Notes under the pieces: generated by a model
What the model saw: only the letters and a program-made list of their open reading frames with translations
Databases searched by the model: none
What the model was told of the DNA's origin: nothing
NCBI GenBank assembly: GCA_016789365.1
Contig: JAEURH010000032.1
Span: forward strand, 1-34,853
DNA from: Anaerolineales bacterium
GTDB lineage: Bacteria; Chloroflexota; Anaerolineae; Anaerolineales; Villigracilaceae
Direction: 5' to 3'
DNA: 34,853 nt
In this document: in pieces, positions 9,924 to 34,853 of the stretch
How the letters are laid out: every line of letters starts with the position of its first letter
Numbering within the stretch: position 1 is the stretch's first letter
Program-made: the position numbers and the translations under genes

Positions 9924-10009
9924 GTCATTGCGAGGCGAAGCCGAAGCAATCTTATGATTGGGTTGGGGATTGCTTCGCCACAAAATACAAGAGCGTGGCT
10001 CGCAATGAC
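9924..10009. repeat. 86-bp palindromic element, GTCATTGCGAG type (copy 2)
   Basis: It has the same inverted termini (GTCATTGCGAG, CTCGCAATGAC) and the same length as the copy at 2865-2950. The inner GAAGCAATCTTATG block and GATTGCTTCG are also shared. It lies in the 522-base gene-poor interval before the small transcript described at 10088. Confidence 0.85.
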
Positions 10010-12994: not shown

Positions 12995-13069
12995 ACCTTT
13001 ATAAGTTTTGCAAAACCTGTGCAAGTTTTCGTATCCAAACATCAATTAATATTAAGGAGTGAAAAGAAA

Positions 13070-14047
13070 ATGAAACGTAATTCCCTATTTCTCGGACTGC
13101 TTCTCGTAGTCTCCCTCGTTTTAGCGGCGTGTGCGCCTGCCACTACCCCGACTCCAGCCCCTGAGCCAACTGCCATGCCGGAGCCAACAGCAACACCTGA
13201 GCCTGAATTGTTAGACATTGTAGACACAGCCGTGGCTGATGGTCGCTTCACCACTCTGGTAGCCGCAGTAGAAGCCGCTGGTTTGGTCGAAACACTTAAA
13301 GGCGAAGGTCCATTCACCGTGTTTGCTCCAACAGACGATGCGTTTGCGGCTCTTCCTGAAGGTACAGTAGAAAGCCTGCTCTTACCTGAAAATAAGCAAC
13401 AATTGACCGATATTTTGCTCTACCATGTTGTTTCAGGCAAAGTGATGGCGGCGGATGTTGTTGGGCTTACCAGCGCGCCGACTGTGTTAGGTCAAGATAT
13501 TGCCATCAACGTAGATATGGGCAATGTGTACCTCAACGAATCAGTAAAAGTCATCATCACAGATATTGAAACATCCAATGGTGTTATTCATGTGATTGAT
13601 GCAGTTTTATTGCCACCTGCCGCGGAAGAATCCAATACGATTGTTGATGTGGCTGTAGCGGATGGGCGCTTCACCACTTTGGTTGCCGCTGTGCAAGCCG
13701 CTGGTTTAGTTGAAACACTTCAAGGCGAAGGTCCGTTCACTGTCTTTGCACCAACAGACGATGCTTTTGCCGCTTTACCTGCTGGCACAGTCGAAAGTTT
13801 GCTCTTGCCTGAAAATAAGCAACAATTGACCGATATTTTGCTCTACCATGTTGTTTCAGGCAAAGTGATGGCGGCGGATGTCGTTGGGCTCACCAGTGCG
13901 CCAACTGTGCTTGGTAAAGACATCACAATCACAGTAAAAGACGGAAAAGTATTTTTGAATGATACTGTGCAAGTCATCATCACTGATATTGAAACATCCA
14001 ACGGTGTAATACACGTCATTGATGCGGTTCTCCTCCCGCCTCAATAA
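13070..14047 (+). CDS. Lipoprotein with two tandem FAS1 (fasciclin) domains
   Basis: The 325-residue protein begins [10 protein letters not shown] and carries a lipobox LVLAAC with the lipidated Cys at 21, so it is anchored to the outer face of the membrane. A Pro/Glu/Thr linker follows to about residue 42. Two FAS1 domains follow, each beginning with the [18 protein letters not shown] type motif, with [17 protein letters not shown] and a C-terminal [15 protein letters not shown]. The repeat period is 141 codons, and one block of 74 bases is identical between the copies. AAGGAG lies ten bases before the chosen ATG. FAS1 domains mediate adhesion or polymer binding; the ligand is unknown. Confidence 0.93.
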
Positions 14048-14271: not shown

Positions 14272-15999
14272 ATGGCAAAAGCAAAACTGATTGCCCCTTA
14301 TGGTGGCAAACTTGTGAATTTAGTTGTGAACGGCGAAGAGCGCGAGGAATTAATTGCCCACGCTTCACAACTTCCTTCTATCAAAATTACAGCAAGAAAT
14401 TTATGTGATTTTGAATTAATCGCTACGGGCGGCTTCTCTCCATTGACCACGTTCATGGGTAAAGCCGATTATGACCGCGTGTTGCGTGAAATGCGTTTAG
14501 CAGATGGAACTTTCTTTCCGCTTCCGATTACGCTGACGGCTGACCCTAAAGAATTACCCACCGTTGGTGAAGAGTTAGCATTACGCAATGCAAACTTTGA
14601 TTTGATTGCAGTGTTGACATTGCAAGAAATTTATCACTGGGACCCAGAAGTAGAAGCGGCACATGCTTACGGGACAACTGACCCAAAACACCCAATGGTT
14701 TCTGAAATGGCTCGTTGGGGTAAAGTTTGTATTTCTGGTCCAATGAAAGTATTGAACCTGCCCAAGTATTATGATTTTGTTAATCTTCGTCACACTCCAA
14801 CACAAGTACGTGAAATGCTTGAAAACATGGGGCATGACAATGTTGTTGCCTTCCAAACACGAAATCCATTACACAGAATCCATGAAGAATTGACCAAGCG
14901 TGCCGCCGCGCAAGTAAACGGTTCGTTGATTATTCATCCAGTGGTTGGTTTGACCAAACCAGGTGATGTTGACCATTACACGCGCGTGCGAACATATAAA
15001 GCATTGGTTGATAATCATTACGATAAAAAAAGCACAATGTTAAGTCTGCTTCCGTTGGCAATGCGCATGGCGGGTCCAAAAGAGGCGTTGCTTCATGCCA
15101 TCATCCGCAGAAATCATGGTGCGAATCATTTCATCGTTGGGCGTGACCATGCAGGACCAGGCAATGATTCTACGGGCAAACCATTTTACGGTCCGTATGA
15201 CGCGCAAGAATTAATGAAACAACACGAAGCAGAAATCGGAGTCAAAATGATTCCGTTTGAGATGCTGGTTTATCTTCCCGATGAACAAAGATATGTGGAA
15301 GAAAAAGATGTGCCCAAAGGTGCAAAAGTTGCCAACATCTCTGGCACACAAGTTCGTGATGAATATTTAGCAAAAGGAAAACTTTTGCCCGAATGGTTCA
15401 CCCGTCCAGAAACTGCTGAAATTTTACGCGAGACCTATCCTGCTCGTCACAAACAAGGTTTTTGTATTTGGTTCACAGGCTTAAGTGGTTCAGGAAAATC
15501 TGCAACAACTTCTGTGTTAACTTCTTTATTACTTGAACGCGGACGTGAAACAATGGTGTTGGACGGTGATGTGGTTCGTACGCATCTTTCAAAAGGTTTA
15601 GGTTTCAGCAAAGAAGACCGCGATACAAATATTTTGCGAATCGGCTTTGTGGCGGGTGGCATTGCAAAAGCAGGTGGTGCAGTGGTTTGTGCCGCAATTA
15701 GTCCATATCGCGCCACGCGTGAAGAAGCCCGCAAAATGGTCGGTGAAAACTTTATTGAAGTATTCATGGATACTCCAGTAGAAATTTGTGAAGAACGCGA
15801 TGTAAAAGGTTTATATGCCAAAGCCCGCCAAGCCATGCAAGAAGGCAAACCCATGGGCTTCACTGGTGTGGATGACCCCTACGAATCACCCATCAACCCT
15901 GAAATCACACTCAAAGGGTTTGGCTCTTCACCCGAAGAAAACGCCCGCATCATTTTGAAATACCTTGAAGAACAAGGTTTTGTTTTGTCTCACAATTAA
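14272..15999 (+). CDS. sat: Bifunctional ATP sulfurylase / APS kinase (PAPS synthase)
   Basis: The 575-residue fusion makes 3'-phosphoadenylyl sulfate from sulfate and two ATP. Residues 1 to about 390 form ATP sulfurylase, with QTRNPLHRIHEE (195-206, nucleotide-binding His residues) and GRDHAGPG (290-297). Residues about 397-575 form APS kinase, with Walker A GLSGSGKS (403-410) and a DGDVVR segment. CGGAG precedes the ATG. It opens a series that contains sulfotransferases at 20780, 22608 and 31973, which need PAPS, so a role in sulfation is more likely than sulfate assimilation. No PAPS reductase or sulfite reductase gene lies in the window. Confidence 0.95.
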   Translation: MAKAKLIAPYGGKLVNLVVNGEEREELIAHASQLPSIKITARNLCDFELIATGGFSPLTTFMGKADYDRVLREMRLADGTFFPLPITLTADPKELPTVGEELALRNANFDLIAVLTLQEIYHWDPEVEAAHAYGTTDPKHPMVSEMARWGKVCISGPMKVLNLPKYYDFVNLRHTPTQVREMLENMGHDNVVAFQTRNPLHRIHEELTKRAAAQVNGSLIIHPVVGLTKPGDVDHYTRVRTYKALVDNHYDKKSTMLSLLPLAMRMAGPKEALLHAIIRRNHGANHFIVGRDHAGPGNDSTGKPFYGPYDAQELMKQHEAEIGVKMIPFEMLVYLPDEQRYVEEKDVPKGAKVANISGTQVRDEYLAKGKLLPEWFTRPETAEILRETYPARHKQGFCIWFTGLSGSGKSATTSVLTSLLLERGRETMVLDGDVVRTHLSKGLGFSKEDRDTNILRIGFVAGGIAKAGGAVVCAAISPYRATREEARKMVGENFIEVFMDTPVEICEERDVKGLYAKARQAMQEGKPMGFTGVDDPYESPINPEITLKGFGSSPEENARIILKYLEEQGFVLSHN

Positions 16000-16013
16000 G
16001 ATTTAATTACGGA

Positions 16014-16057
16014 TTACGAATTACGGATTAACGTGATTCGTAATCCGTAATTCGTAA
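16014..16057 (+). repeat. Hairpin spacer built from ATTACG units
   Basis: TTACGAATTACGGATTAACG pairs with CGTAATCCGTAATTCGTAA in a 19-bp stem with one bulged A and a 5-base loop. It fills most of the spacer between the PAPS synthase gene and the next gene and ends one base before the ATG at 16059. Confidence 0.75.
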
Positions 16058-16058
16058 A

Positions 16059-17624
16059 ATGACTCGTTCAAATTTCCCCGCTTCTTTCTTGACATTTCGA
16101 CACGGCTCAATGCAAGCCTTCATCCTGCTTGCTGTAATTGGAACTTTTCTTATCCTGTATGCGACTCCGCAAGGGCTGGGACTCTTCGATGATTCAATTG
16201 CCTACATTGCAGGTGCAAGAAGCATCTTAAACGGAGATGGTTATCGAGAAGCATGGCTCGCCTCCAACCAACCTGTGACGCATTTCCCGCCAGGCTTTTC
16301 GTCACTGCTTGCATTGGTCGGATTAAGTGGCTTAGACCCATTACGAGGCACACGCTTCGTCAACTCATTATTATTTGGCGGAAACATTTTCCTGCTCGGC
16401 ATCATCGGCTGGAAGATGACCAAATTACAAATAGCAGGTATCGCTTTATCAATTTTATTTTTAGTCAATCACTCATTATTTCGCTTGCACACTACCGCCA
16501 TGAGTGAGCCGTTATATATTTTTCTCACACTCGCATCATTCTTAACTTTTTACTATTACTTTCAACTTAAACAAAAACGTTGGCTAATTTTGACTGGCTG
16601 TTTGGTGGGCTTAGCATACTTAACCCGTTATGCAGGTTTGGCATTATTTGCTACATTTCTCGTCAGTTTAATTCTGCTCAAACATCCATGGAATTGGAAA
16701 CTTTCTCGCGCCGCAATTTTTATCGCCAGTTTTATTCCTTTTGCACTCGGCTGGAGCATCCGCAATCGTTTATTAGCAGATAATGCTACAAACCGCACAA
16801 TTTTTTATCACCCCATCACGCCAGAAAATATTGAAACAGGCATTTACAATTTTTCATTATTCTTCATGCCATTTGAAACTTGGCGACGCGAACTCATGCG
16901 CATTCCAAATTTATTTATCGTCATTATTTCTGTCATTCTCTTCATTTTGTTAGCATGGCTGTTATACAAAGGCTTAAAAAAGTTTTTCCAACCCTCTACT
17001 GAAACGCCAGAATTATTATCTTTCATCAGCACACTTTATATATTTGGTTATCTATCCTCTCTTTTCGTTACGATGACGTGGTTTGATGCTAGCACAAAAT
17101 TTCAGTTAAGAATCTTATCGCCAATTTTTGTTAGCCTATTAATCATGGCTATTTATTTCTTAAATCAAATTTGGCATAAACAAAAATATCTTTCCGCTTT
17201 CCTCTTTCTATTTATTATCACATTATCATTATCTGGAATCACCAACACCATCACCGACCTCCGCAAAGGTGGGCAAGGATACGCTTCGTTTCAATGGTTC
17301 GACGCAGAGGCGATGGAATTTTTACGCAATTTGCCCGAAGGCACGCGCATCTACACCAACGAAGCCGCCGCAGTATATCTCTACACAAATCGCGGGGCGT
17401 ATGTATTGCCTGATTTGATAGACCCAGTTACAGGTCAAGAAAGAGGCGGGTTTGAATCAGGTGTTGCCAATTTGCAAAAAGATGTTTTATCAGGCAACGC
17501 TGTCCTCTCACTTTTTGATGTCAGCAAAAATCTACAAACACAAGCCGTGTATCAAATTTTGAGCGAGGGGTTGTATCTTGCGTTTGATAAACAAAACGAT
17601 ACAATTTACACAGCCTACCCATAA
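16059..17624 (+). CDS. GT-C type membrane glycosyltransferase (PMT/ArnT-like)
   Basis: The 521-residue protein has about ten membrane segments from residue 20 to about 390 and a soluble C-terminal part. The first periplasmic loop has FDDSIAYIAGA, a DD pair like the catalytic acidic motif of GT39/GT83-type transferases that use polyprenyl-phosphate sugars. TRYAGLAL and FPPGFSSLLALVG are also typical. No Shine-Dalgarno sequence precedes the ATG, which directly follows a hairpin spacer. The SDR gene starts eight bases after its stop, so translation is probably linked. It likely transfers a sugar to a lipid or protein at the outer membrane face; donor and acceptor are unknown. Confidence 0.85.
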   Translation: MTRSNFPASFLTFRHGSMQAFILLAVIGTFLILYATPQGLGLFDDSIAYIAGARSILNGDGYREAWLASNQPVTHFPPGFSSLLALVGLSGLDPLRGTRFVNSLLFGGNIFLLGIIGWKMTKLQIAGIALSILFLVNHSLFRLHTTAMSEPLYIFLTLASFLTFYYYFQLKQKRWLILTGCLVGLAYLTRYAGLALFATFLVSLILLKHPWNWKLSRAAIFIASFIPFALGWSIRNRLLADNATNRTIFYHPITPENIETGIYNFSLFFMPFETWRRELMRIPNLFIVIISVILFILLAWLLYKGLKKFFQPSTETPELLSFISTLYIFGYLSSLFVTMTWFDASTKFQLRILSPIFVSLLIMAIYFLNQIWHKQKYLSAFLFLFIITLSLSGITNTITDLRKGGQGYASFQWFDAEAMEFLRNLPEGTRIYTNEAAAVYLYTNRGAYVLPDLIDPVTGQERGGFESGVANLQKDVLSGNAVLSLFDVSKNLQTQAVYQILSEGLYLAFDKQNDTIYTAYP

Positions 17625-17632
17625 AGGTTCAC

Positions 17633-18457
17633 ATGACCATATTTGAAAAATTTTCTTTGAAAGATAAAGTTGCAGTTGTAACAGGCGGTGTTGGATTAAT
17701 TGGCGCGGAATTTTGCAAGACGTTAGCAGAAGCAGGCGCATCGGTTGCAGTGGTGGATGTAAACGCTTCATTGATTCAGGCGACAGTTGATACGCTTACG
17801 AAAAATGGATTCAATGCTGTGGGCATTGCTACTGACATCACCAAACCCGATTCAGTTAATGCAATGGTTGAAAAAGTAATTTCAACTTTTGGAAGATTAG
17901 ATGTTTTAGTTAACTCCGCCGCACTTGACCCAAAGTTTGATGCGACTGCTTTAGAAAAAGGCATTGCCCCCGGTGCATTTGAAGATTATCCACTCGCGGA
18001 TTGGAACGCGGCGATGAATGTAAACTTAACGGGCATGTTTTTGGTAACACAAGCCTGTGCAAAGCAAATGGTTAAAAATAAAAAAGGCAGTATTATTAAT
18101 ATCTGTTCAACATACGGTTTGAATGGACCAGACCAACGGATTTATATCAAAGATGGAAAACGTGTTGCGTATAAACCTGTCTATTACACAGTGACGAAAG
18201 CGGGTGTGATGGGCTTTACAAAATATCTCGCCGCTTATTATGCTGAGACAGAAATCCGTGTCAATGCGTTGACTCCAGGTGGTGTATTCAATAACCACGA
18301 AGAATATTTCGTGAAAAATTATTCTGCAAAAACAATTTTGGGTAGAATGGCAAAGAAAGATGAAATGAACGGCGCGTTGTTGTTCCTTGCTTCAGATGCT
18401 TCATCGTATATGACTGGAAATAATTTAATTGTTGATGGTGGTTGGACGGCGTGGTGA
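17633..18457 (+). CDS. SDR family oxidoreductase in the nonulosonic acid cluster
   Basis: In this 274-residue protein the cofactor motif is VAVVTGGVGLIG (14-25). The catalytic Ser lies in INICSTYG, and Tyr and Lys lie in YYTVTKAG. The C-terminus is NNLIVDGGWTAW. AAAGG lies upstream of the ATG. Immediately before a CMP-sugar synthetase and a NeuB-type synthase, it resembles the PtmA position in Campylobacter legionaminate loci. Substrate is probably a sugar intermediate, but this is inference from context. Confidence 0.9.
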   Translation: MTIFEKFSLKDKVAVVTGGVGLIGAEFCKTLAEAGASVAVVDVNASLIQATVDTLTKNGFNAVGIATDITKPDSVNAMVEKVISTFGRLDVLVNSAALDPKFDATALEKGIAPGAFEDYPLADWNAAMNVNLTGMFLVTQACAKQMVKNKKGSIINICSTYGLNGPDQRIYIKDGKRVAYKPVYYTVTKAGVMGFTKYLAAYYAETEIRVNALTPGGVFNNHEEYFVKNYSAKTILGRMAKKDEMNGALLFLASDASSYMTGNNLIVDGGWTAW

Positions 18458-18459
18458 TT

Positions 18460-18525
18460 TCAGTGTTCAGTATTCAGTGTTCCAGTCATCAGTCCGAATA
18501 CTTAACACTGATTACTGATTACTGA
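18460..18525 (+). repeat. Imperfect hairpin spacer built from TCAGT units
   Basis: TCAGTGTTCAG... (18460-18481) is imperfectly complementary to AACACTGATTAC... (18504-18525); the inner eight bases TCAGTGTT/AACACTGA pair perfectly. It lies between the SDR stop and the CMP-sugar synthetase start, which has no Shine-Dalgarno sequence. Confidence 0.65.
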
Positions 18526-18546
18526 CTACCGACCTACTAATTACCG

Positions 18547-19782
18547 ATGACCAATATACTCGCACTTATCCCTGCTCGTGGCGGTTCGAAAGGTATTCCG
18601 CGAAAAAATATCCGCAGTTTTGCTGGGTATCCATTAATCGCGTGGAGTATTGCCGCGGCGAAACAATCAAAGTTGGTGACAAGAATTATTGTCTCAACGG
18701 ATGATGAAGAGATTGCAAAAGTTGCTCGTGAATGGGGCGCAGAAGCACCATTTCTACGTCCTGCCGAAATTTCACAAGACAAAACAACGGATTTACCAGT
18801 CTTTGAACATACATTGAAATGGTTGGAAGATGTGGAAGGCTACAGACCTGATATTGTGATTCAGTTACGACCTACATCCCCAATTCGTCCGCAAGGAATG
18901 GTGGATAATGCCATTCGTATTTTACAAAATCATAAAGATGCCGATTGTGTGCGTGGGGTTGTAGTCGCTGGGCAAAATCCGTTTAAGATGTGGCGATTTA
19001 ATGGTGAAGATAAACCTTTGTATCCATTATTAGAAGTGGATGGAATCAAAGAGCCGTACAATGCACCACGTCAAATTCTTCCGCCTGTCTATTGGCAGAC
19101 TGGTCACATTGATGCGATTCGCACATCCACGATTTCAGAAAAAAAATCTTTAACAGGTGATGTGATTTATCCGTTGGTGATTGATTCAAAATATACTGTG
19201 GATATTGATACACTTTCTGACTGGTCAAAATATGAAGCCGTGATTTATAGTGGTTTAGAAGTTGTGTCACCAAGATCACCTCGTAAGCAAATGCCTGAGA
19301 TAATAAAGTTAATCATCTGTGATTTTGATGGTGTTGTGACAGATAACTCTGTGATTACAGATCAAGATGGAAAAGAATCTGTTTTGGCATCAAGAAGTGA
19401 TAGTATGCACATCAAAACCTTGAAAGAAAAAGGAATTGACTTCATGATTCTTTCATCTGAACCCAACGGAGTTGTCCAAGCGCGGGCAAAAAAGATGGGG
19501 GTAGAATCAATTCACGGGATTGGCATGCAAGATAAAGGTCGAGTGATGCGTGAAGTGTTAGAAAAGAAAAATATCAAAGCAGAAAATGTCATCTATGTAG
19601 GTAATGATTTGAATGACCTTCCGTGTTTTGAAATTGCAGGTTGGTCTGTGGCAGTGGCAGATGCGTATCCTGAAATTATCCGCGCCGCAGATTTTGTGTT
19701 GACCAAAAATGGCGGGCATGGAGCAATTAGAGAATTGTGTGAGTTAATATTACAAAAGAGTGCGTCGCACCCAACAGGTTGA
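18547..19782 (+). CDS. neuA: CMP-nonulosonate synthetase fused to KdsC-like HAD phosphatase
   Basis: A two-domain protein of 411 residues. Residues 1 to about 235 are an acylneuraminate cytidylyltransferase: ALIPARGGSKGIPRKNI at the nucleotide site, RIIVSTDDEEIA, and RPTSPIRP. Residues about 253-405 are a HAD phosphatase of the KdsC type: DFDGVVTDN (Asp259, Asp261), LSSEPNG, Lys330 and GNDLNDLPC. The same domain order occurs in animal CMAS. It should activate a sialic acid-like sugar with CTP and may also remove a phosphate from the sugar phosphate. The last codons, SASHPTG, overlap a GTGCGTCGCAC arm, as in folK. The ATG lacks a Shine-Dalgarno sequence. Confidence 0.93.
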   Translation: MTNILALIPARGGSKGIPRKNIRSFAGYPLIAWSIAAAKQSKLVTRIIVSTDDEEIAKVAREWGAEAPFLRPAEISQDKTTDLPVFEHTLKWLEDVEGYRPDIVIQLRPTSPIRPQGMVDNAIRILQNHKDADCVRGVVVAGQNPFKMWRFNGEDKPLYPLLEVDGIKEPYNAPRQILPPVYWQTGHIDAIRTSTISEKKSLTGDVIYPLVIDSKYTVDIDTLSDWSKYEAVIYSGLEVVSPRSPRKQMPEIIKLIICDFDGVVTDNSVITDQDGKESVLASRSDSMHIKTLKEKGIDFMILSSEPNGVVQARAKKMGVESIHGIGMQDKGRVMREVLEKKNIKAENVIYVGNDLNDLPCFEIAGWSVAVADAYPEIIRAADFVLTKNGGHGAIRELCELILQKSASHPTG

Positions 19783-19812
19783 GACACACTACATTCGCAA
19801 GGTGCGACGCAC
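19760..19812. repeat. GTGCGTCGCAC inverted-repeat element (copy 2)
   Basis: Arms at 19760-19770 and 19802-19812 are separated by 31 bases, the same spacing as copy 3. The left arm is inside the end of the cytidylyltransferase gene and encodes part of SASHP. The element ends 24 bases before the next start codon. Confidence 0.85.
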
Positions 19813-19835
19813 CCTCTGCATTCTAAGGAGAAAAA

Positions 19836-20717
19836 ATGGCACGAGAAATAAAATTTGGAAATCGAATGATGGGTGATGGTCACCCTGCATATATCATTGC
19901 AGAAGTTGGAATCAATCACAATGGTGATTTGGATATTGCAAAAAAAATTATTGATGCCGCCGCACATGCAGGCGCGGATGCAGTCAAATTTCAAAAACGC
20001 ACGCCTGAAATTTGCACCCCACCCGAACAACAAAAACAAATGCGTGAAACGCCTTGGGGCTACATCACATATTTAGATTATCGTTATAAAGTTGAATTTA
20101 ACGAAGAACAATATCGTGAAATTGACCGCTATTGTAAAGAAAAGAAAATTGATTGGATGGTTTCAGTGTGGGATGAACCCTCTGTTGATTTCATGGAAAA
20201 GTTTGATACACCTGCTTATAAAGTTCCATCTGCTTCGCTTACCGACCATAACTTGTTAAAGTATGTTCGCAAAACGGGTAAGCCTGTTATTATTTCAACG
20301 GGTATGTCCACCATGCAACAAATTCACAAAGGCATAGAAGTTGTTGGTGAAGATAATTTAGTTATTATGCACTGCACCAGCACATATCCATGTGAGCCTG
20401 AAGAATTAAATCTCAAAATGATTGAAACACTTCGCAAAGAATTTCCAAACAATCCAATCGGATATTCTGGTCACGAAGTTGGGCTTGTGCCTTCCGCAGT
20501 TGCAATTGCATTAGGCGCAACTTCGATTGAACGTCATATCACTTTAGACCGCGCCATGTGGGGCAGTGACCAAGCCGCATCTGTTGAGCCTGGTGGTTTT
20601 GAAAAATTGGTTAAATACATTCGCGTCACTGAGGCTTCATTGGGTGATGGTGTTAAGAAAGTTTATGAATCTGAAAAAGGTTCAATGAAGAAATTACGCC
20701 GCGTTGTGAATGAATAA
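19836..20717 (+). CDS. neuB: NeuB-family nonulosonate (phosphate) synthase, short form
   Basis: This 293-residue TIM-barrel enzyme condenses phosphoenolpyruvate with a hexose derivative to give a nine-carbon sugar acid. Family motifs present are AEVGINHNGD, ADAVKFQKR, KVPSASL, STGMS, HCTSTYPC, GYSGHE and ERHITLDRAMWGSDQAASVEP. The C-terminal SAF (antifreeze-like) domain of classical NeuB, about 60 residues, is absent; the protein ends soon after the barrel. AAGGAG lies eight bases upstream. It follows the synthetase/phosphatase fusion, so the two probably act in sequence. Which sugar is made (sialic, legionaminic or KDN type) cannot be read directly. Confidence 0.92.
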   Translation: MAREIKFGNRMMGDGHPAYIIAEVGINHNGDLDIAKKIIDAAAHAGADAVKFQKRTPEICTPPEQQKQMRETPWGYITYLDYRYKVEFNEEQYREIDRYCKEKKIDWMVSVWDEPSVDFMEKFDTPAYKVPSASLTDHNLLKYVRKTGKPVIISTGMSTMQQIHKGIEVVGEDNLVIMHCTSTYPCEPEELNLKMIETLRKEFPNNPIGYSGHEVGLVPSAVAIALGATSIERHITLDRAMWGSDQAASVEPGGFEKLVKYIRVTEASLGDGVKKVYESEKGSMKKLRRVVNE

Positions 20718-20724
20718 TTGCTTT

Positions 20725-20767
20725 TTACGCATTACGAATCACGTAATAAATAATTCGTAATGCGTAA
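20725..20767 (+). repeat. Hairpin spacer built from ATTACG units
   Basis: TTACGCATTACGAAT (20725-20739) and ATTCGTAATGCGTAA (20753-20767) form a perfect 15-bp stem. It separates the NeuB gene from the sulfotransferase gene, with only 12 bases from its end to the ATG. Confidence 0.78.
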
Positions 20768-20779
20768 TCCGTAATAGTG

Positions 20780-21625
20780 ATGAAAAAAATTCGTAGCACA
20801 TTACGTCCGCACTTAAAAACCGCCCAAGCCATCTTAAGGTGGAAGCGGTTTTCTTTTCATGAAGCCCCACCAATTTTCGGAAATTCAAAACCAAAAAGCG
20901 GTTCGCATTTGTTGTTGCAAATTCTCAACGGTTTCACACAAATCATGCCGTATAAATATGTGGATGCTGAACCTGTGAGAACGATAAAAAAAGACGGTGG
21001 ACGGCGGACGGCAGATGATATTCTTTCTGACTTAAAAAATATTCCTGATGGAGTCATTGGCTGGGGATATTTAGATGCTACAAAAGAAAACGCTTCTTTC
21101 TTAACTCAAGCTGGGCGCGTGACCTACTTCATTTATCGTGACCCACGCGATATGCTCGTATCACAAGTGTTTTTCGCGACAGACATGCACGAAGAACATG
21201 GCATGCACGCCTATTACAACTCATTGCCTGATTTTGGTGAGCGACTCAAAGTCGCAATCACAGGCATTGACAAAGATGGCTTGCACATGGTTTCGGTCAA
21301 ACAAAGATATGAAGGCGTATTTCAATGGCTCGAACAAAAAAATGCAATGTGTATCCGCTTTGAAGATTTAATTGATAATCGTGATGTTACTTTGAATAAA
21401 ATGTTGGATGAAGTCGAAAAGGCTGGGTATAAAATCCCAACTCAAAGAGAAGAAGCAATTTCAATCTTAATTGAAGCGATTCAACCAAAGAAAAGTCACA
21501 CCTTCCGCTCTGGTAAAACTGGCGGATGGAAAAATTATTTCACCGATGAGCATAAAAAATTATTCAAAGATGTGGCGGGGGATTTATTAGTAAAATTGGG
21601 ATACGAAAAAAATAATGATTGGTAA
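20780..21625 (+). CDS. PAPS-dependent sulfotransferase (copy 1)
   Basis: In this 281-residue protein the 5'-phosphosulfate loop is PKSGSHLL (38-45) and the 3'-phosphate site is FIYRDPRDMLVSQVFF, with Arg120 and Ser128. The C-terminal RSGKTGGWKNYF stretch fits the conserved RxGxxGxWKN region. No membrane segment is present. A GTG lies one codon upstream; ATG at 20780 is preferred. No Shine-Dalgarno sequence is visible. The protein is clearly paralogous to the one at 31973. It should transfer sulfate from PAPS to a hydroxyl or amino group on the glycan or its lipid; acceptor unknown. Confidence 0.9.
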   Translation: MKKIRSTLRPHLKTAQAILRWKRFSFHEAPPIFGNSKPKSGSHLLLQILNGFTQIMPYKYVDAEPVRTIKKDGGRRTADDILSDLKNIPDGVIGWGYLDATKENASFLTQAGRVTYFIYRDPRDMLVSQVFFATDMHEEHGMHAYYNSLPDFGERLKVAITGIDKDGLHMVSVKQRYEGVFQWLEQKNAMCIRFEDLIDNRDVTLNKMLDEVEKAGYKIPTQREEAISILIEAIQPKKSHTFRSGKTGGWKNYFTDEHKKLFKDVAGDLLVKLGYEKNNDW

Positions 21626-21627
21626 TA

Positions 21628-21656
21628 TGTAGGGGCGAGGTGACCTCGCCCCTACA
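21628..21656. repeat. Perfect 29-base palindrome
   Basis: Arms TGTAGGGGCGAGGT and ACCTCGCCCCTACA around a central G, three bases after the sulfotransferase stop. It belongs to the same family as the palindrome at 14228. Confidence 0.85.
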
Positions 21657-21676
21657 ACAATTAATTGGAGGAACTC

Positions 21677-22606
21677 ATGCCCGTTCACGGAACGCATAAT
21701 GCGGTAGAAGATAAACGTAACGAAAAAATATTAATTTATGTAAACGGAGAATTATTTCCGCGCAATGAAGCCAAGATTTCAGTCTTTGACAGTGGTTATC
21801 TCGTTGGCGATGGGATTTGGGAAGCACTTCGTTTACATGATGGTGTCTTAGTTTTTCTGGATGAACATCTCAATCGATTATGGCAAGCGGCGGCAACTGT
21901 GGGCATGGATTTAAAAATGACTCGCCAAGAATTGACAGATAAAATTTGGCAAACGCTGAAAGCCAATGATATGCACGATGGCGTACATGTTCGTTTTATG
22001 GTGACACGCGGAACAAAAAAAACTCCATCCCAAGACCCTCGTTTGGTGATGACTGGACCAAACCTTGTTATCATTCCTGAATATAAACAAGCTAGCCCTG
22101 ACTCTCGCAATCGTGGTGTGACTTTATTTACCAGCACGATTCGTCGCGGCTCGCCTGATTATCTTGACCCTCGTTTGAATTGTCATAGCAAATTGCATGA
22201 AGTGATGGCATTAGTCCAAGCGATTGAAGCAGGTGCGGATGAAGCACTCATGTTGGATATTCATGGCTTTGTGGCAACATGCAATGCCACAAATTTTTTC
22301 ATGGTCAAAGATGGTGAAGTGTGGACATCTACTGGACAATATTGCATGAATGGAATCACACGCGGAAAAGTCATCAAAGTTGCAAAAGATAATGGTATTC
22401 CTTGTTATGAAAAAAACTTTTCGTTGTTCGATGTGTATGGTGCAGATGAAGCATTTGTGACTGGAACGTTTGGTGGGTTAACACCCGTCACCAAAATTGA
22501 TGGGCGAGTTATTGGTGATGGAAAAGTTGGAACGATGACTCAAAAATTGTCAGCGATGTATGAGGCTGAGGTTCAGCAAGCAGTTAGAAAGGCGAAGGAG
22601 GCGTAG
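21677..22606 (+). CDS. Class IV (BCAT/D-amino acid type) aminotransferase
   Basis: In this 309-residue PLP enzyme the cofactor lysine is Lys172 in RLNCHSKLHEVMAL, followed by DEALMLDIHGFVATCNATNFFMV, typical of the family, and a C-terminal phosphate-binding loop around TGTFGGLTPV. The chosen ATG has GGAGG five bases upstream; a TTG four codons earlier is less likely. It is one base from the following sulfotransferase gene. Family members act on branched-chain or D-amino acids, or as aminodeoxychorismate lyase. The context suggests it makes or uses an amino compound that is then sulfated, but this is inference. Confidence 0.9.
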   Translation: MPVHGTHNAVEDKRNEKILIYVNGELFPRNEAKISVFDSGYLVGDGIWEALRLHDGVLVFLDEHLNRLWQAAATVGMDLKMTRQELTDKIWQTLKANDMHDGVHVRFMVTRGTKKTPSQDPRLVMTGPNLVIIPEYKQASPDSRNRGVTLFTSTIRRGSPDYLDPRLNCHSKLHEVMALVQAIEAGADEALMLDIHGFVATCNATNFFMVKDGEVWTSTGQYCMNGITRGKVIKVAKDNGIPCYEKNFSLFDVYGADEAFVTGTFGGLTPVTKIDGRVIGDGKVGTMTQKLSAMYEAEVQQAVRKAKEA

Positions 22607-22607
22607 C

Positions 22608-23336
22608 ATGTCATCTAAAAAAATTTGTTTGTGGAGCGGTCCGCGAAATATATCCACCGCATTGATGTATTCATTCGCGCAACGAAATGATTGTCAAGTT
22701 TTTGATGAGCCGTTGTATGCGCATTATCTTTCCAAAACGCCTGCGCGTGCGTATCATCCTGGTGCAGATGAAGTGATTGCAGAAATGGAAAATGATGGCG
22801 AGAAAGTTGTGCGTGATTTGATTTTAGGATTTGATGCCAAGCCTGTGGGGTTTTTTAAACACATGACGCATCATTTACATAACCTCAACTTGGGTTTTCT
22901 CGACCAAACTGTGAATGTGCTTCTAACTCGTGACCCTGAAGATATGTTGCCGAGTTATGCGGCGTGGGTTGCAAACCCAACTTTGCAAGATGTTGATTAC
23001 AAACAGCATATTGAGTTATTCAATGATTTGAAATCACGCGGACAAAATCCGCCTGTGTTAGATTCAAAACAAATTTTGTTAAACCCGAAAAAAGTTTTGA
23101 ATGAACTATGTGAACGCATTGGCATTGATTTTCAAGAAAGTATGTTGAGTTGGAAAGCAGGCGCCAGAGTGGAAGATGGTTCGTGGGCGAAGTATTGGTA
23201 TAAGTCAGTACATGAATCAACAGGTTTTGGGGAATATGTAAAAAAGCCTACGCCGTTTCCTGATTCGTTGAAGCCATTGCTTGAAGAATGTAAGCCTTAT
23301 TATGAGCAATTGAATGCTTTGGCGATAAAGGCGTAA
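22608..23336 (+). CDS. Sulfotransferase-like protein paired with the aminotransferase
   Basis: This 242-residue protein has the N-terminal loop LWSGPRNISTALMYSFAQR (8-26), a P-loop-like 5'-phosphosulfate site of a separate sulfotransferase subfamily, and LLTRDPEDMLPSY for the 3'-phosphate. It differs from the copies at 20780 and 31973 and is not a recent duplicate. AAGGAGG lies within the end of the preceding gene, eight bases before the ATG. The two genes are one base apart. A similar domain is, to my recollection, fused to a class IV aminotransferase in plant BCAT-like proteins. Substrate is unknown. Confidence 0.85.
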   Translation: MSSKKICLWSGPRNISTALMYSFAQRNDCQVFDEPLYAHYLSKTPARAYHPGADEVIAEMENDGEKVVRDLILGFDAKPVGFFKHMTHHLHNLNLGFLDQTVNVLLTRDPEDMLPSYAAWVANPTLQDVDYKQHIELFNDLKSRGQNPPVLDSKQILLNPKKVLNELCERIGIDFQESMLSWKAGARVEDGSWAKYWYKSVHESTGFGEYVKKPTPFPDSLKPLLEECKPYYEQLNALAIKA

Positions 23337-23409: not shown

Positions 23410-25134
23410 ATGACAAACTATCAAGGTTTACTTCAACGACTTCGAGATTTTGTTAATAGTGAATTCGCTACACAACATGCGAATCTAGAAAGACAATGGG
23501 CGCTTCCATTAGGTGAGCGAGTCGCACGAGGTTATGCAATTGAAGGATTGAATGTTGAGAATAGTATCAAACAAACAATTAGATTAAGTTGCCAAGCCAA
23601 TGAATCTAGGTTTCGTGAAGGTGATTTCTTAGTACTACACCGAGGTAATCCTATCGGAATCGAAGCAATGCAAGTTTTAGTTGAATACGATGATGAGACA
23701 TTGTTGGAAGTCAGTTTGCAAGGAGGAAATCCTTTCTTTCTACAGCAGGATTCCGACGGCTGGATCGCTGACGAGAGCATGATGGATTTACGCCGTTTTC
23801 ATTTAGATGCTCTTGATGAAGTGGCTGATACTATTAATGGACGTGAAACTATACTACCAATGCTTAATGGAGATCGAATCCCTCAGTTGAATTTAGCCCG
23901 TTACGAGCGAATACAGAAAAAAATTATACAAAACGGGTTGAATTCATCACAAAATGAAGCAATTGCACAAGCATATGCGACTGATTTGTACCATTTAATT
24001 CAAGGTCCTCCTGGAACTGGAAAAACTTTTGTTTTGGCTAATCTAGTTCGTTTATTAGTTGAAGATGGACAACGGGTATTGGTTACTGCTCTTACGCATC
24101 GTGCAATTAATAATGCTCTTAATAAAGTTTACGAAATAGATTTGGCATTGCCAGTATGTAAGATAGGGATTGAGTCTCGAACCAATGATTTGCAAGTAAG
24201 GAATTATGAAAATTTTATTAATTCAGGATTTGGGGATTTACTTGGTGGGTATGCAGTTGGTGCAACCCCATTTGCCCTCAGAAGTAATCGCCTCTCTGGT
24301 GTTGAATTTGATGTTGTCATATTTGATGAATCATCTCAAGTAACTCTCCCACTAGCCATAATGGGGATGCTTGCAGGCAAAAAATATATCTTTATTGGAG
24401 ATGAGCATCAACTTCCGCCAGTTACATCACTTAAGAGTACAGGTGTATGGAATACATCCGTATTTGGATATTTATCGGGGCGCGGTGCACAAACAATGTT
24501 AACTACAACATATAGAATGAATGACGTGCTTGCTTATTGGCCAAGTCGTGAATTTTATGATAGTTTACTCACGCCTGATGAAAATACGGCCAATCGTCGT
24601 TTAAATTTAAGTGAAACAAATGGAATTTGGGGCCATGTCTTAGATCCTGAGTTTCCTGCTGTTTTCCTAGATTTACAACACCGTGGTAATACCAATCGAA
24701 GTCGAAAAGAAGCAGAAACTGTCGTCGAATTGATTAAAGCCCTGCTCCATGCAAAAGTACCTGCATTGGAAATTGGAGTTGTTGTACCATATCGAGCTCA
24801 AGGACGTGCGATTCGCAACCTTCTTCGTCAGGCTTTACCGAATGAAGAAATTGCGCGTGAAATTGTAGTAGATACTGTTGAACGTATGCAAGGGCAAGAA
24901 CGCGAAGTTATCTTAGTTTCGCTTACAACTTCATCAACAGGCTTCGCCAGTCAAATAGCTGAGTTCTTCTTTCAACCGCAGCGGCTAAATGTTGCTATTA
25001 CACGTCCTCGCACAAAACTAATTATTGTAGGTTCAAGTGTCGTGCTTGAAGCCGAACCTGCTGACACAAATCATCAAAATTGGGTGGGACTATTAAGAAG
25101 TTTGCTAGAAAACTGTCTAACTATCACGATATAA
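23410..25134 (+). CDS. DNA2/UPF1-like superfamily 1 helicase
   Basis: In this 574-residue protein the order is an N-terminal beta-rich segment (about 35-130), then helicase motifs: I GPPGTGKT (199-206), II DESS (306-309), III GDEHQLPP (330-337), IV TTYRMN, V VERMQGQEREVILVSLTTSS, and VI LNVAITRPRTKLIIVGS. These are features of the SF1B AAA_11/AAA_12 group that unwinds DNA or RNA. There is no nuclease domain or zinc cluster. It begins a three-gene run: one base separates it from the second helicase. I cannot assign it to a named defence system. Confidence 0.93.
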   Translation: MTNYQGLLQRLRDFVNSEFATQHANLERQWALPLGERVARGYAIEGLNVENSIKQTIRLSCQANESRFREGDFLVLHRGNPIGIEAMQVLVEYDDETLLEVSLQGGNPFFLQQDSDGWIADESMMDLRRFHLDALDEVADTINGRETILPMLNGDRIPQLNLARYERIQKKIIQNGLNSSQNEAIAQAYATDLYHLIQGPPGTGKTFVLANLVRLLVEDGQRVLVTALTHRAINNALNKVYEIDLALPVCKIGIESRTNDLQVRNYENFINSGFGDLLGGYAVGATPFALRSNRLSGVEFDVVIFDESSQVTLPLAIMGMLAGKKYIFIGDEHQLPPVTSLKSTGVWNTSVFGYLSGRGAQTMLTTTYRMNDVLAYWPSREFYDSLLTPDENTANRRLNLSETNGIWGHVLDPEFPAVFLDLQHRGNTNRSRKEAETVVELIKALLHAKVPALEIGVVVPYRAQGRAIRNLLRQALPNEEIAREIVVDTVERMQGQEREVILVSLTTSSTGFASQIAEFFFQPQRLNVAITRPRTKLIIVGSSVVLEAEPADTNHQNWVGLLRSLLENCLTITI

Positions 25135-25135
25135 T

Positions 25136-27148
25136 ATGGCACAAATTATCCCATCAACCCCGCTGAGTAGTTTACCATCAGAAATCCTGAAAGTTTATCG
25201 CTTCCTGAAATCTCTCCCTGAAGGCTATGTAGTATGGCATCATTTAACACCTTGGGAAAAGGAAGCACCTGATTTTATGATTTTGAACAAGAATAATCAA
25301 GTTATTCTTGTCAAAGTTAGTATGGTTGCAAAATCAACGCACTCTTCGGCTCAGATGCTTCTTTTAGGTGAAGCAAAACCTTTAGGGGAAGAAGAAAACC
25401 TTGTCTTGGAATTATTTAAGAATAAATTCCCAGTATTAATAAAAGATAGGATTGTTACAGTTGTCTTATTTCCAAATATTAACTCTAACAAATTAGAAAC
25501 AGACTATCGTAACGAAAACACAGGACAACATCATTGGATTGGGCAGGAAATGATCCAAACAAATGCCATCGAACACTGGGAAGAATTGTTCAGCGGTGAG
25601 AAATTAACAGCAACTATGCTTGAACAATTACGTTATGTTTTCACTCCAGAAATTGTTATTCCAAAAGAATTAACAGTTCGTCCAACTGATACTGAGCGAC
25701 ACGCTGCTGGATTAGAAGGTTATTTATTAGATACTTTACAAGAGGCAGCAGTAAAAAATGACCTTGAAATCCCATCTGATCGGGAAATAACCGCTAAAGA
25801 TTTTCACATAGGAATTATTAATGGAGTAGCTGGTAGTGGAAAAACATTAATATTGCTTTATCGTTTGAGGTTATTGCATTCTAATTTCCCCAATCATAGG
25901 TTTTTGATTCTCACTCATAATCGTCCGCTTATTCGTGACATCCGATCAAAGTATAAACTTTTGACAGGAGATATGCCAAAGAATATAACATGGAAAACAT
26001 TTAATGGCTTCTGTCGCCAATATTGGCCTGAAAAAGAAAACTCGTGGACCAATCCGATTAGACAATCAGAACGCGAACATGTTGCAAGAACTATTTGGGA
26101 GAAGAAACTTACTAAGACATCCATTCAAATCGATAATTTACTAAGTGAGATTGACTGGTTCAAAGATCAAATCCCAATGGACAAATCAAAATACCTTCAA
26201 ACCGAGCGAAAAGGTCGTAGATTTAGATTGAATCAAGATCAACGTCTTGCCATGTGGGATGCAATGAGTGATTATCAAAATCAGTTAATTGAGCAAAATA
26301 AAATGGATTGGGGTGATGTTCCACGGCGAATGTGGAATTTCCTGCGTGAAAATAAAGTCCAATTGCCAAAATATGATTTTGTAATGATTGACGAGGCGCA
26401 GTTTTTTGCTCCTATTTGGTTCGATATTATTAGACAAATCGCAAAACCAAAAATTAGTCATTTATTTATTGTGGCTGATCCAACTCAAGGGTTTCTTGGG
26501 AGAGGAACATCGTGGAAATCATTGGGAATTGACGCTCGCGGAAAAACACAAAATATGCGCCGTTCTTACAGATCAACGCATGAAATCCTGAACTTTGCAA
26601 CTTTGCTTTATCGTCGGCGGATAAAGAACAATGACGCAGATGAAGATATTATTGAACCTGATTTGATGAATATGCCTCATGGCGCGTTGCCTATTGTTAT
26701 TTCCTTGCGAAGCGCACAAGATGAAATTGGAAGAATAACAGCTGAAATTGAAGCCTTAAATAAACATGGTGTGCCGTTACGAAATATACTGATTCTGCAT
26801 TCTGAATGGGAAGGTGTAAAAGCATTGATTATGTCACTAAATAATCGTTTGGGGGAAGGAACCGCAATTGACCCTAAGGAAACTACCTCTGGTGATTGTA
26901 TAAGGGTAACAACATTGAACGCAGGAACTGGTTTAGAAAGCCCTGTAGTATTTCTTGTTGGATTAAATCGTATCCTTGAAATGGAACAAAGTTTAAGGTT
27001 ATCTGATGATGAAATCGAAAAACTGGTGCTGGAAAATACTCGCAAAATATATATGGCAGCTACTCGCGCGGGGCAAAGATTGATAATCACCTATGTTGGT
27101 GAAATCCCTAATGAGTTAAAAGACATTATTCAAATACCTGCCAGATGA
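25136..27148 (+). CDS. SF1 UvrD-like helicase with degenerate NERD-like N-terminus
   Basis: In this 670-residue protein residues about 10-115 have a nuclease-like layout: PDFMILNKNNQVILVKVS resembles the NERD core, but the catalytic Glu-x-Lys appears as Lys-x-Ser, so the domain may be inactive. Helicase motifs follow: I NGVAGSGKT (to 237), Ia ILTHNRPL, II FVMIDEAQFF, III VADPTQGFLG, IV RRSYRSTHEIL, V TTLNAGTGLESPVVFLVG and VI YMAATRAGQRLIITY. The start is one base after the first helicase stop and lacks a Shine-Dalgarno sequence, which suggests translational coupling. Its stop overlaps the next start by four bases. Role in defence, repair or transfer is open. Confidence 0.9.
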   Translation: MAQIIPSTPLSSLPSEILKVYRFLKSLPEGYVVWHHLTPWEKEAPDFMILNKNNQVILVKVSMVAKSTHSSAQMLLLGEAKPLGEEENLVLELFKNKFPVLIKDRIVTVVLFPNINSNKLETDYRNENTGQHHWIGQEMIQTNAIEHWEELFSGEKLTATMLEQLRYVFTPEIVIPKELTVRPTDTERHAAGLEGYLLDTLQEAAVKNDLEIPSDREITAKDFHIGIINGVAGSGKTLILLYRLRLLHSNFPNHRFLILTHNRPLIRDIRSKYKLLTGDMPKNITWKTFNGFCRQYWPEKENSWTNPIRQSEREHVARTIWEKKLTKTSIQIDNLLSEIDWFKDQIPMDKSKYLQTERKGRRFRLNQDQRLAMWDAMSDYQNQLIEQNKMDWGDVPRRMWNFLRENKVQLPKYDFVMIDEAQFFAPIWFDIIRQIAKPKISHLFIVADPTQGFLGRGTSWKSLGIDARGKTQNMRRSYRSTHEILNFATLLYRRRIKNNDADEDIIEPDLMNMPHGALPIVISLRSAQDEIGRITAEIEALNKHGVPLRNILILHSEWEGVKALIMSLNNRLGEGTAIDPKETTSGDCIRVTTLNAGTGLESPVVFLVGLNRILEMEQSLRLSDDEIEKLVLENTRKIYMAATRAGQRLIITYVGEIPNELKDIIQIPAR

Positions 27149-28761
27149 AAGATTTTTTCACCCAACGCATCAAACGTGGACTTGTCCGCCGATTTAATAA
27201 TTTTAAAATTGCTCGTGTTGCAAAACAAGTTGCGAAGCAAAAATCTGAGCTAAAAGGTCAACCTGTGGTTTTCTTCAAAGCATCTACAGGTATTGACGAT
27301 TTATCTTGGAACAGTGGATTTCATTTGTTAGCATCGTGGGCATTTCGTTTGAAAGGTATCCCTGTTGCCTATTTTGCTTGCAATGCTGGGATGAGCAAAT
27401 GTGTGTTGGGGACGAATCGGGATAATCCGCATAAGGAAATGCCATGTAAAACTTGTGTAAGTCAGGCGAAGACGTTGTATGCAGGAGTTCAGTCACAGGT
27501 TGAAGGTCACAAGTCTCAGGTTGAGTGGTTTGGTTTTGAACGAGACACACAACTTGTATCTCGTATCTCACAACTTTCCCTTCACGAACTTTCTGTTTTT
27601 CAATTTCAAAACATTCCATTTGGTGAACTATGTTTGCCAGCGCTTCGTTGGATTTTACGAATCCATCACTTGAATGATGATGAAAGCACTCGCTATCTTT
27701 TAAGAGAATATATCCTCTCTGCTTGGAATGTGGCTCAAAAGTTTTCAGCTTTTCTGGATCAGACTCAACCGCGAGCAGTCATTGTTTTCAACGGACAATT
27801 CTTCCCTGAAGCAACAGCAAAATATATTGCTCAGAAACGTGGGATTCGAGCCATCACACACGAAGTTGGACTTCAACCTGCATCCGCATACTTCACAGAT
27901 GGTGAAGCAACAGCCTACCCGATTCACATCCCTGATGACTTTGAATTAAATGATGAACAAAATAAAAAATTAGATGATTATTTAGCCAAACGCTTTCAAG
28001 GTGACTTTACAATGGCAGGCATCAAATTCTGGGCGGACATGAAAGGACTCGACGAGACATTTTTGCAAAAAGCCAGCGGATTCAAACAAATTGTGCCTGT
28101 GTTTACGAATGTCATCTTTGACACTAGTCAACCACATGCAAATACAGTTTTTGAGGATATGTTCGATTGGCTGGATTTGGTTTTAGAAGTCATCAAAAAA
28201 CATCCTGAAACTTTATTCGTAATTCGTGCTCACCCTGACGAATTACGAGTCCGCAAGGCAAGCCGTGAGACAGTGGGTGGATGGGTTGAGTCGAATAAAG
28301 TCACAGACTTGCCAAATGTAATTTATGTTGCGCCGAATGAAGCACTTAGTTCGTATGAGTTGATTTTGAAATCAAAATTTGTGATGATTTACAACTCAAC
28401 TATTGGATTAGAAGCATCCATTATGAGAATGCCTGTCTTGTGTGCAGGCAAAGCAAGATTCACACAATATCCCACCGTGTTTTTCCCGCAGACAATTGAT
28501 GAAGTTAGAAAAAAGATGGAAGAATTTTTGCTTGCTGAAAAAATTGAAGTCCCTGCTGAATTCAAACGCAATGCCAGAAGGTTTTTGTATTATCAATTAT
28601 TTAGAACGTCATTGCCATTTGGGGATTTTCTTGAGCCTTCTGTGAGGACGACGCAAACGAAGTTGAAATCATTTGAGTTGGATAAGTTAGTAGAGTCTGA
28701 GTCAGTGAAAGTGATTTTAGACGGGGTTTTGGGGAATGAAGATTTTTTATTGAAAGAATAA
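27145..28761 (+). CDS. Capsule-type GT-B glycosyltransferase-like protein
   Basis: In this 538-residue protein the C-terminal half looks like a GT-B Rossmann domain of capsule or teichoic acid enzymes: FVIRAHPDELR, then NSTIGLEASIMRMPVLCAGKARF. The N-terminal part has four Cys in CNAGMSKC and PCKTC (79, 86, 101, 104), a possible metal site. There is no signal peptide. The ATG overlaps the helicase stop (ATGA). Residues about 115-144 are encoded by a block of repeat-like DNA. The neighbouring genes suggest glycan synthesis; donor and acceptor are unknown. Confidence 0.8.
   Translation: MKDFFTQRIKRGLVRRFNNFKIARVAKQVAKQKSELKGQPVVFFKASTGIDDLSWNSGFHLLASWAFRLKGIPVAYFACNAGMSKCVLGTNRDNPHKEMPCKTCVSQAKTLYAGVQSQVEGHKSQVEWFGFERDTQLVSRISQLSLHELSVFQFQNIPFGELCLPALRWILRIHHLNDDESTRYLLREYILSAWNVAQKFSAFLDQTQPRAVIVFNGQFFPEATAKYIAQKRGIRAITHEVGLQPASAYFTDGEATAYPIHIPDDFELNDEQNKKLDDYLAKRFQGDFTMAGIKFWADMKGLDETFLQKASGFKQIVPVFTNVIFDTSQPHANTVFEDMFDWLDLVLEVIKKHPETLFVIRAHPDELRVRKASRETVGGWVESNKVTDLPNVIYVAPNEALSSYELILKSKFVMIYNSTIGLEASIMRMPVLCAGKARFTQYPTVFFPQTIDEVRKKMEEFLLAEKIEVPAEFKRNARRFLYYQLFRTSLPFGDFLEPSVRTTQTKLKSFELDKLVESESVKVILDGVLGNEDFLLKE
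27488..27576 (+). repeat. Repeat-like segment inside the capsule gene
   Basis: CAGTCACAGGTTGAAGGTCAC and related CACAGGT/CTCAGGT units, then ACAACTTGTATCTCGTATCTC, look like the degenerate spacers seen between genes. Here they are in frame and give GVQSQVEGHKSQVEW plus about 15 more residues. Status as an insertion is inference. Confidence 0.4.
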
Positions 28762-34673: not shown

Positions 34674-34853
34674 ATGAAACTCGCCGCCCTTGTGCCCATG
34701 CGCCATCACAGCCAGCGCGTGCCTGGCAAAAATTATCGTCCGCTTGCGGGCAAACCACTTTTTCATCACATCATCGAAACTTTAATTAAAGTTCCCGAAA
34801 TTGAATCGATAATGATTGATACCGATTCAAAACCTATTTTAGATGAAGTGCCC
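34674..34853 (+). CDS. Second cytidylyltransferase (CMP-sugar synthetase), 5' part only
   Basis: Sixty codons run to the window edge. The N-terminus has LVPMRHHSQRVPGKNYRPLAGKPL, the nucleotide-binding motif of acylneuraminate/KDO cytidylyltransferases, then IESIMIDTDSKPI. It is not a copy of the N-terminal domain at 18547. It starts 12 bases after the GNAT stop. Sugar specificity is unknown. Confidence 0.85.
   Translation, partial: MKLAALVPMRHHSQRVPGKNYRPLAGKPLFHHIIETLIKVPEIESIMIDTDSKPILDEVP

Follow-up and report, generated by a model that had tools for sequence, protein, structure and literature searches.

The nearest characterised context for the locus described here is the teichulosonic-acid cluster of Streptomyces coelicolor. 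This cluster spans SCO4873-SCO4882 (PMC13011467), its NeuB is SCO4881 (PMC2367054), and teichulosonic acid is a polymer of galactose (Gal) and the nonulosonic acid Kdn (PMC11481543, PMC7831098). Here, we analysed a whole 34,853-base contig (hereafter the window; JAEURH010000032.1 of assembly GCA_016789365.1, whose genome is 86% complete) from a member of the Villigracilaceae (Chloroflexota; Anaerolineales), in which genes for a nonulosonic acid glycan lie on the forward strand together with genes for sulfation. The cell envelope of Anaerolineae is, to our knowledge, poorly characterised. The analysis identifies a nonulosonate glycan locus that is real and conserved and bears a sulfation layer specific to the lineage; the chemistry of its product is predicted from genes. 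We give a probability of about 60% to the reading that the locus produces a Kdn-type nonulosonic acid activated with cytidine monophosphate (CMP) and incorporates it into a glycan of the cell envelope, which in the window's family is also sulfated; the substrate, step order, sulfate position, location and polymer are all predicted from sequence.

A nonulosonate core shared by two families

Mapping of the window proteins onto 100 related loci (in two sets, 20 and 80) revealed a core common to the window's family and a sister family. In order, it comprises a short-chain dehydrogenase/reductase (SDR; 17633-18457, PF13561/PF00106), a CMP-nonulosonate synthetase fused to a KdsC-type HAD phosphatase (NeuA/HAD; 18547-19782), a NeuB-family synthase without SAF domain (19836-20717) and a KpsC-fold (GT-B) transferase (27145-28761), often followed, in both families, by a GT2 glycosyltransferase (32812-33750; PF00535, 4.1e-24) and a second cytidylyltransferase (34674-34853). 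In 65 of the 100 loci, the flanks on either side reached 8.5 kb or more, and removal of two duplicates (both without PAPS synthase, see below) left 63 distinct flanked loci besides the window. Among the 44 of these from outside Streptomyces, 42 carry the SDR, and 37 combine it with both the full-length NeuA fusion and the KpsC-fold gene. A full-length relative of the second cytidylyltransferase (L068:19850-20512), which matches CTP_transf_3 (PF02348), found matches in 36 of the 100 loci, 32 of them, among which are L068 itself and two pairs of duplicates, at ≥57% identity and four at 27-30%. The close relative L057, from a separate assembly, has the same gene order from DUF3417 to GNAT, minus two helicases and a membrane gene (29532-31232); hence, the order in the window is no assembly accident.

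Among 396 sampled genomes of the class, 121 had a NeuB match. All 25 genomes sampled from the window's family (its own included) carry the gene, 24 at ≥77% identity and one (G367) in two fragments, with identities of 77-95% in 23 of the 24 genomes other than the window's own. The sister family had matches at 65-73% identity in all 10 genomes sampled and seems to be the Anaerolineaceae, to judge by two of its genomes (G202 and G392) whose NeuB segments are the same as those of L086 (Bellilinea caldifistulae) and L097 (Anaerolineaceae bacterium). A wider NeuB scan, covering one genome each of 84,980 species, yielded 592 stretches, 585 of which were confirmed; the best 80 of these 585, which give a lower bound on the spread, came mostly from Anaerolineae and Streptomyces; Poribacteria, KSB1, Ignavibacterium and Gammaproteobacteria each contributed one or two loci. 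The carriers are a mostly uncultured group of Chloroflexota. The high NeuB identity across the window's family, together with the same core in its sister family, points to a basic component of the envelope.

A first-pass annotation of this DNA had named most of these genes, and all that it named were found by open reading frame (ORF), Pfam and NCBIfam analysis in the place and direction it gave. The second cytidylyltransferase is a real gene, but an incomplete one, cut after 60 codons by the contig end at 34853. The annotation's suggestion that the gene set should recur in related genomes holds for the core, as judged by NeuB (25/25 and 10/10 genomes in the two families) and by the mapped loci; the KpsC-fold transferase, however, had gone unnamed, and an aminotransferase/Sulfotransfer_5 pair had been wrongly included.

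The synthase and its fused partner

The NeuB protein clearly belongs to its family (PF03102, 273.2 bits against a cut-off of 22.1) and scores under the cut-offs of the NCBIfam models NeuB_NnaB and PseI. It stops at 293 aa with no SAF match in Pfam, and so lacks the C-terminal domain of canonical NeuB, PseI and LegI enzymes. Across 13 aligned sequences, 11 active-site positions were invariant; E23, K51, K129, S132, Y184, S211, H213, H234 and D245 were aligned and invariant in 13/13, the reference being what we take to be the catalytic residues of the Neisseria enzyme (E25, K53, K129, S132, Y186, S213, H215, H236 and D247). The partner protein matches PF02348 (CTP_transf_3) and HAD, with PseF-like and KdsC models, and shares 35% identity over almost its full length with a Streptomyces fusion. 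Its HAD motifs look intact against those we presume to be diagnostic, as a route through a 9-phosphate needs.

The Streptomyces NeuB is likewise SAF-less and 64-66% identical to that of the window. Searches of seven Streptomyces genomes found a single clear NeuB in each (one with a weak extra match), and a NeuA match stands ahead of NeuB in 23 of 24 Streptomyces loci, the 24th beginning at a contig edge. Since longest ORFs were poor in these loci owing to high G+C, their gene context was redone with third-position G+C. The NeuB tree was built by a quick method in which long viral and SAF branches meet and deep placements are unsure; we used its SAF split (96) and its Streptomyces clade (100). 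The Streptomyces relative of the window NeuB is apparently SCO4881 of the teichulosonic-acid cluster, and because this cluster is a Gal/Kdn one, a Kdn-type sugar formed via a 9-phosphate is the best-supported guess for the product. Mannose-6-phosphate is most likely the substrate, a candidate suggested by context, namely the HAD phosphatase fused to the partner and the likely Streptomyces orthology.

Two further observations concern NeuB relatives elsewhere. The window's genome holds two more NeuB-family matches (L002, G000:C376; L003, G000:C22), so that other nonulosonate routes may exist. Relatives of the SAF-less NeuB also occur in IMG/VR viral contigs (best 80 of 243 confirmed stretches, L137-L216; 46-58% identity), and of 12 placed in the quick tree, several branch among cellular sequences.

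A KpsC-fold candidate transferase

The protein encoded at 27145-28761 is proposed to be a CMP-nonulosonate-dependent retaining transferase. KpsC was its top VIA structural match, with a KpsC-like GT-B fold, in a fold search that does not set other GT families aside. The CMP-binding (K/R)xHP motif, as defined in PMC12887879, is kept, with R361, H363 and P364 present in 20/20 sequences. Four further residues, cysteines 79, 86, 101 and 104, are invariant and possibly form a metal site. The protein is a candidate for a new transferase family next to KpsC.

An optional sulfation layer

Most loci of the window's family carry a gene for 3'-phosphoadenosine-5'-phosphosulfate (PAPS) synthase (PAPSS) and a GT-C gene ahead of the SDR, and a sulfotransferase directly behind NeuB, between it and the KpsC-fold transferase. 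The window's PAPSS (14272-15999; NF004040, 820.9 bits) is bifunctional, with ATP sulfurylase and adenosine-5'-phosphosulfate (APS) kinase domains, and is the sole strong APS kinase match of the genome. Two Sulfotransfer_1 proteins follow in the window (20777-21625, PF00685; 31973-32818, PF00685, 1.9e-11), the second 40-42% identical to the first. Positions P39-G42, R121-D125, R244, G246, G249 and W251 are invariant in 12/12 sequences, the second window copy included; they represent the PKSG loop, RDPRD and RxGxxGxW, which we take to be the motifs of PAPS-dependent sulfotransferases.

In the 63 distinct flanked loci, PAPSS and sulfotransferase occur either both (20 loci, each with at least one co-oriented sulfotransferase) or not at all (43 loci). 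Without the 19 Streptomyces loci, the counts are 20 and 24 (Fisher P = 6e-13, kinship ignored). The distribution does not simply follow family: the positive loci include L087 and L099, which lie outside the clade of the window's family and combine a divergent PAPSS (67% and 70% identity) with divergent sulfotransferases (42% and 38%), and the negative ones include L043 and L046 from within that family. Of the 35 left-out loci, 11 show one or the other gene and eight of these show both; in the other three, where the flank is short on the side concerned, L061 and L069 show only a sulfotransferase and L070 only PAPSS. At the genome level, PAPSS was found in 22 and the locus sulfotransferase in 21 of the 25 genomes of the window's family (in one of them as an incomplete match of 62% where a contig ends), and the three genomes without PAPSS (G164, G367 and G387) also had no locus sulfotransferase. 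The GT-C gene, a PMT-like membrane glycosyltransferase (16059-17624; PF02366, 1.7e-6), belongs mostly to the window's family; it is present in 18 flanked PAPSS-positive loci, i.e., all except L087 and L099, with no match in the PAPSS-positive L070 and L072 and weak matches without PAPSS in L089 and L109.

Sulfation is thus an optional addition that most sister-family loci lack. In the cultured Bellilinea caldifistulae, the core locus shows neither a PAPSS nor a sulfotransferase match within flanks of 10 kb; G202, whose NeuB is the same, has a PAPSS elsewhere in its genome. The one PAPS_reduct (CysH) gene of the genome encodes CC and CxxC cysteines, which we take to be the APS reductase pattern; PAPS is therefore probably made for sulfation and not needed for assimilation.

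Proposed pathway and alternative explanations

In the proposed pathway, NeuB would condense a hexose-6-phosphate (most likely mannose-6-phosphate) with phosphoenolpyruvate to yield a 9-phosphate. In the fusion protein, the KdsC-type half would then dephosphorylate this product and the cytidylyltransferase half would form the CMP-sugar. The SDR may alter a hydroxyl, by oxidation or epimerisation, at some stage. The KpsC-fold protein would then transfer the sugar to an acceptor, and the GT2 and GT-C proteins may add or pass on further sugars. PAPSS would supply PAPS, with which one or two cytosolic sulfotransferases would sulfate the glycan or a precursor. The first-pass annotation had proposed a sulfated, sialic acid-like polymer. 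Its NeuB/NeuA pair as a nonulosonate route is borne out, although the sugar is now refined, with a SAF-less NeuB whose nearest characterised context is Kdn in teichulosonic acid. Its partnership of PAPSS and sulfotransferase agrees with the coupling of the two genes in the locus (20 both, 43 neither), but as a layer that is optional and absent from most sister-family loci.

Several observations weigh against this pathway or narrow its reach. Single genomes from two other families of the same order (G289 and G340) gave no NeuB match, and the trait is accordingly not shown to be order-wide. For the transferase, plain Foldseek placed an epimerase above KpsC, and the QxxxD nucleophile motif lacks its Q, the site reading N322xxxD326 with both residues invariant in 20/20 sequences. 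Among 20 window proteins scanned with Pfam, none was recognised as serving export or polymerisation. The link to Streptomyces is drawn from gene context and from the occurrence of a single NeuB in each genome; all 19 flanked Streptomyces loci are without an SDR match, so the sugar of the Anaerolineales may be something other than Kdn. As for sulfation, the NeuB tree offers only three independent contrasts for the PAPSS-sulfotransferase link (all concordant; sign test P = 0.25), and PAPSS occurs in 153 of the 396 class genomes, far past this locus. One genome (G111) has PAPSS and the cluster with no match to the locus sulfotransferase, another sulfotransferase lying 8.5 kb upstream of NeuB. The Sulfotransfer_1 proteins of the locus also resemble cytosolic SULTs, which leaves room for a lipid or small-molecule acceptor.

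That last resemblance feeds the idea that PAPSS and the sulfotransferases are chance neighbours, serving sulfolipid or small-molecule sulfation or assimilation. The breadth of PAPSS in the class fits this idea, as do the seven Sulfotransfer_1 matches of the genome, only two of which lie here, and the presence of a CysH-type reductase. We nonetheless consider it unlikely, given that the reductase has cysteines of the APS type, that the two genes are jointly present or jointly absent inside the locus (20 against 43), and that the sulfation genes are co-oriented and stand between NeuB and the transferase in most loci of the window's family. Less probable still is an ordinary sialylated glycan, for which the synthase would make N-acetylneuraminic acid 9-phosphate from N-acetylmannosamine-6-phosphate. 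NeuB_NnaB is indeed the best NCBIfam model for the synthase, and the PDB homologue 6ncs, of just 290 residues, is labelled a sialic acid synthetase; however, the score of 265.7 bits falls far under the model's cut-off of 399.65, no UDP-GlcNAc 2-epimerase was recognised among the 20 window proteins scanned, and the close NeuB relatives with a known product context sit in the apparent Kdn cluster of Streptomyces.

A more serious contender, which we hold possible but do not favour, is a product that is a modified Kdn or another nonulosonate, formed by the SDR and a partner enzyme. An SDR match (48-54% identity) accompanies NeuA and NeuB in Poribacteria, KSB1 and Ignavibacterium, as the SDR does in Anaerolineales, and candidate partners occur upstream in other loci: a GFO/IDH/MocA oxidoreductase in L086, L103 and L111 (Bellilinea and other phyla) and a class III aminotransferase in Ignavibacterium (L113). 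Yet the window has no recognised partner of this kind, and the family models and PDB matches of the SDR are unspecific. A CMP-activated Kdn-type sugar, transferred to an envelope glycan and sulfated in the window's family, remains our preferred explanation.

Passenger genes and other features of the window

Behind the first sulfotransferase lie a class IV (BCAT-like) aminotransferase (21665-22606; PF01063) and a Sulfotransfer_5 protein (22605-23336; PF19798, 2.4e-44; ORF from 22560, probable start 22605). The aminotransferase was rejected as a nonulosonate synthesis gene on the basis of its class and of its pairing with Sulfotransfer_5 elsewhere in the class without NeuB. Of 298 genomes of the class, 31 contain Sulfotransfer_5; the window's genome is the only one of these among the sampled members of its family. 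Of the 19 loci recovered besides the window's (20 in all), 15 have the aminotransferase within flanks of ~1.5 kb, in either order, and none has a NeuB, PAPSS or Sulfotransfer_1 match within those flanks. The pair is a separate module; L039 and L057 carry it at the same place as the window. In plants, a fused protein has the same aminotransferase/Sulfotransfer_5 make-up.

Between Sulfotransfer_5 and the core transferase, an SF1 helicase (23410-25134; PF13086/PF13087) and a UvrD-type helicase (25136-27148; PF00580/PF13361) form an insertion. They were rejected as part of the locus, being found in the window only, with no match in the 100 related loci within the flanks available. The helicases (23410-27148) give partial PADLOC matches to helicase models of defence systems (MkoA, NERD+UvrD and GajB). 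Directly upstream of the locus, 13019-14047 encodes a tandem fasciclin-domain protein with a lipoprotein-like start and an internal 300-base repeat at 84%, also present in L057. A 38-base repeat with inverted ends occurs at 2893-2930 and 9942-9979; the two copies are 89% identical, lie 7 kb from each other and fall outside ORFs or at their edges.

Comparison with known systems

The first-pass annotation had suspected that such a glycan is undescribed for this lineage, and open-access literature, judged by titles and abstract openings, yielded no description of a sulfated nonulosonic glycan for Anaerolineae or Chloroflexi; phrases for sulfated nonulosonic, Kdn, pseudaminic or legionaminic acid had no match there. 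Both KDN and sulfated glycans have been measured in extracellular polymeric substances of granular sludge (PMC10483923). That paper's main text never mentions Chloroflexi or Anaerolineae, and its BLASTp survey, which covered the top ten genera, could not separate KDN from Neu5Ac synthases; a study of sludge Chloroflexota (PMC11653643) never mentions the terms sialic or nonulosonic. Bearers of the locus are candidate environmental producers of such glycans, and testable ones for the KDN and sulfated glycoconjugates of granular sludge; sulfated and unsulfated forms of the same glycan locus can also be compared as they occur in nature.

The Kdn pathways of Bacteroides thetaiotaomicron and Prymnesium, which run from mannose-6-phosphate via Kdn-9-phosphate to CMP-Kdn (PMC6200933), likewise proceed through phosphorylated intermediates and involve a phosphatase and a cytidylyltransferase. 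Unlike in those pathways, the two predicted activities are fused in the window, where the Kdn-type product is a predicted one. The KpsC-fold protein shares ~14% identity with the retaining beta-Kdo transferases KpsC (GT107) and WbbB (GT99) and differs from them in having NxxxD where they have QxxxD, and in its four invariant cysteines.

The closest parallel is with Streptomyces, where a SAF-less NeuB also stands beside a fused cytidylyltransferase/HAD protein and glycosyltransferases also surround NeuB. The NeuB neighbours in Streptomyces locus L126 are a PF07388 polysialyltransferase, a protein with a weak GT29 match, a GT2 protein and DUF6716, the PF07388 and GT29-like proteins being the likely transferases; neither type had a Pfam match among the 20 window proteins scanned, and the Anaerolineales locus has a KpsC-fold transferase. 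Conversely, PAPSS and sulfotransferase, like the SDR, had no match in any of the 19 flanked Streptomyces loci. A broader and less likely reading is that at least two Anaerolineales families have among their core traits an envelope glycan with nonulosonate, similar in kind to teichulosonic acid in Streptomyces. This glycan would be installed by a new family of retaining glycosyltransferases (KpsC fold, NxxxD nucleophile and four-cysteine metal site), would have become a sulfated polymer in one of the families, and would account for some of the KDN and sulfated glycans found in granular sludge.

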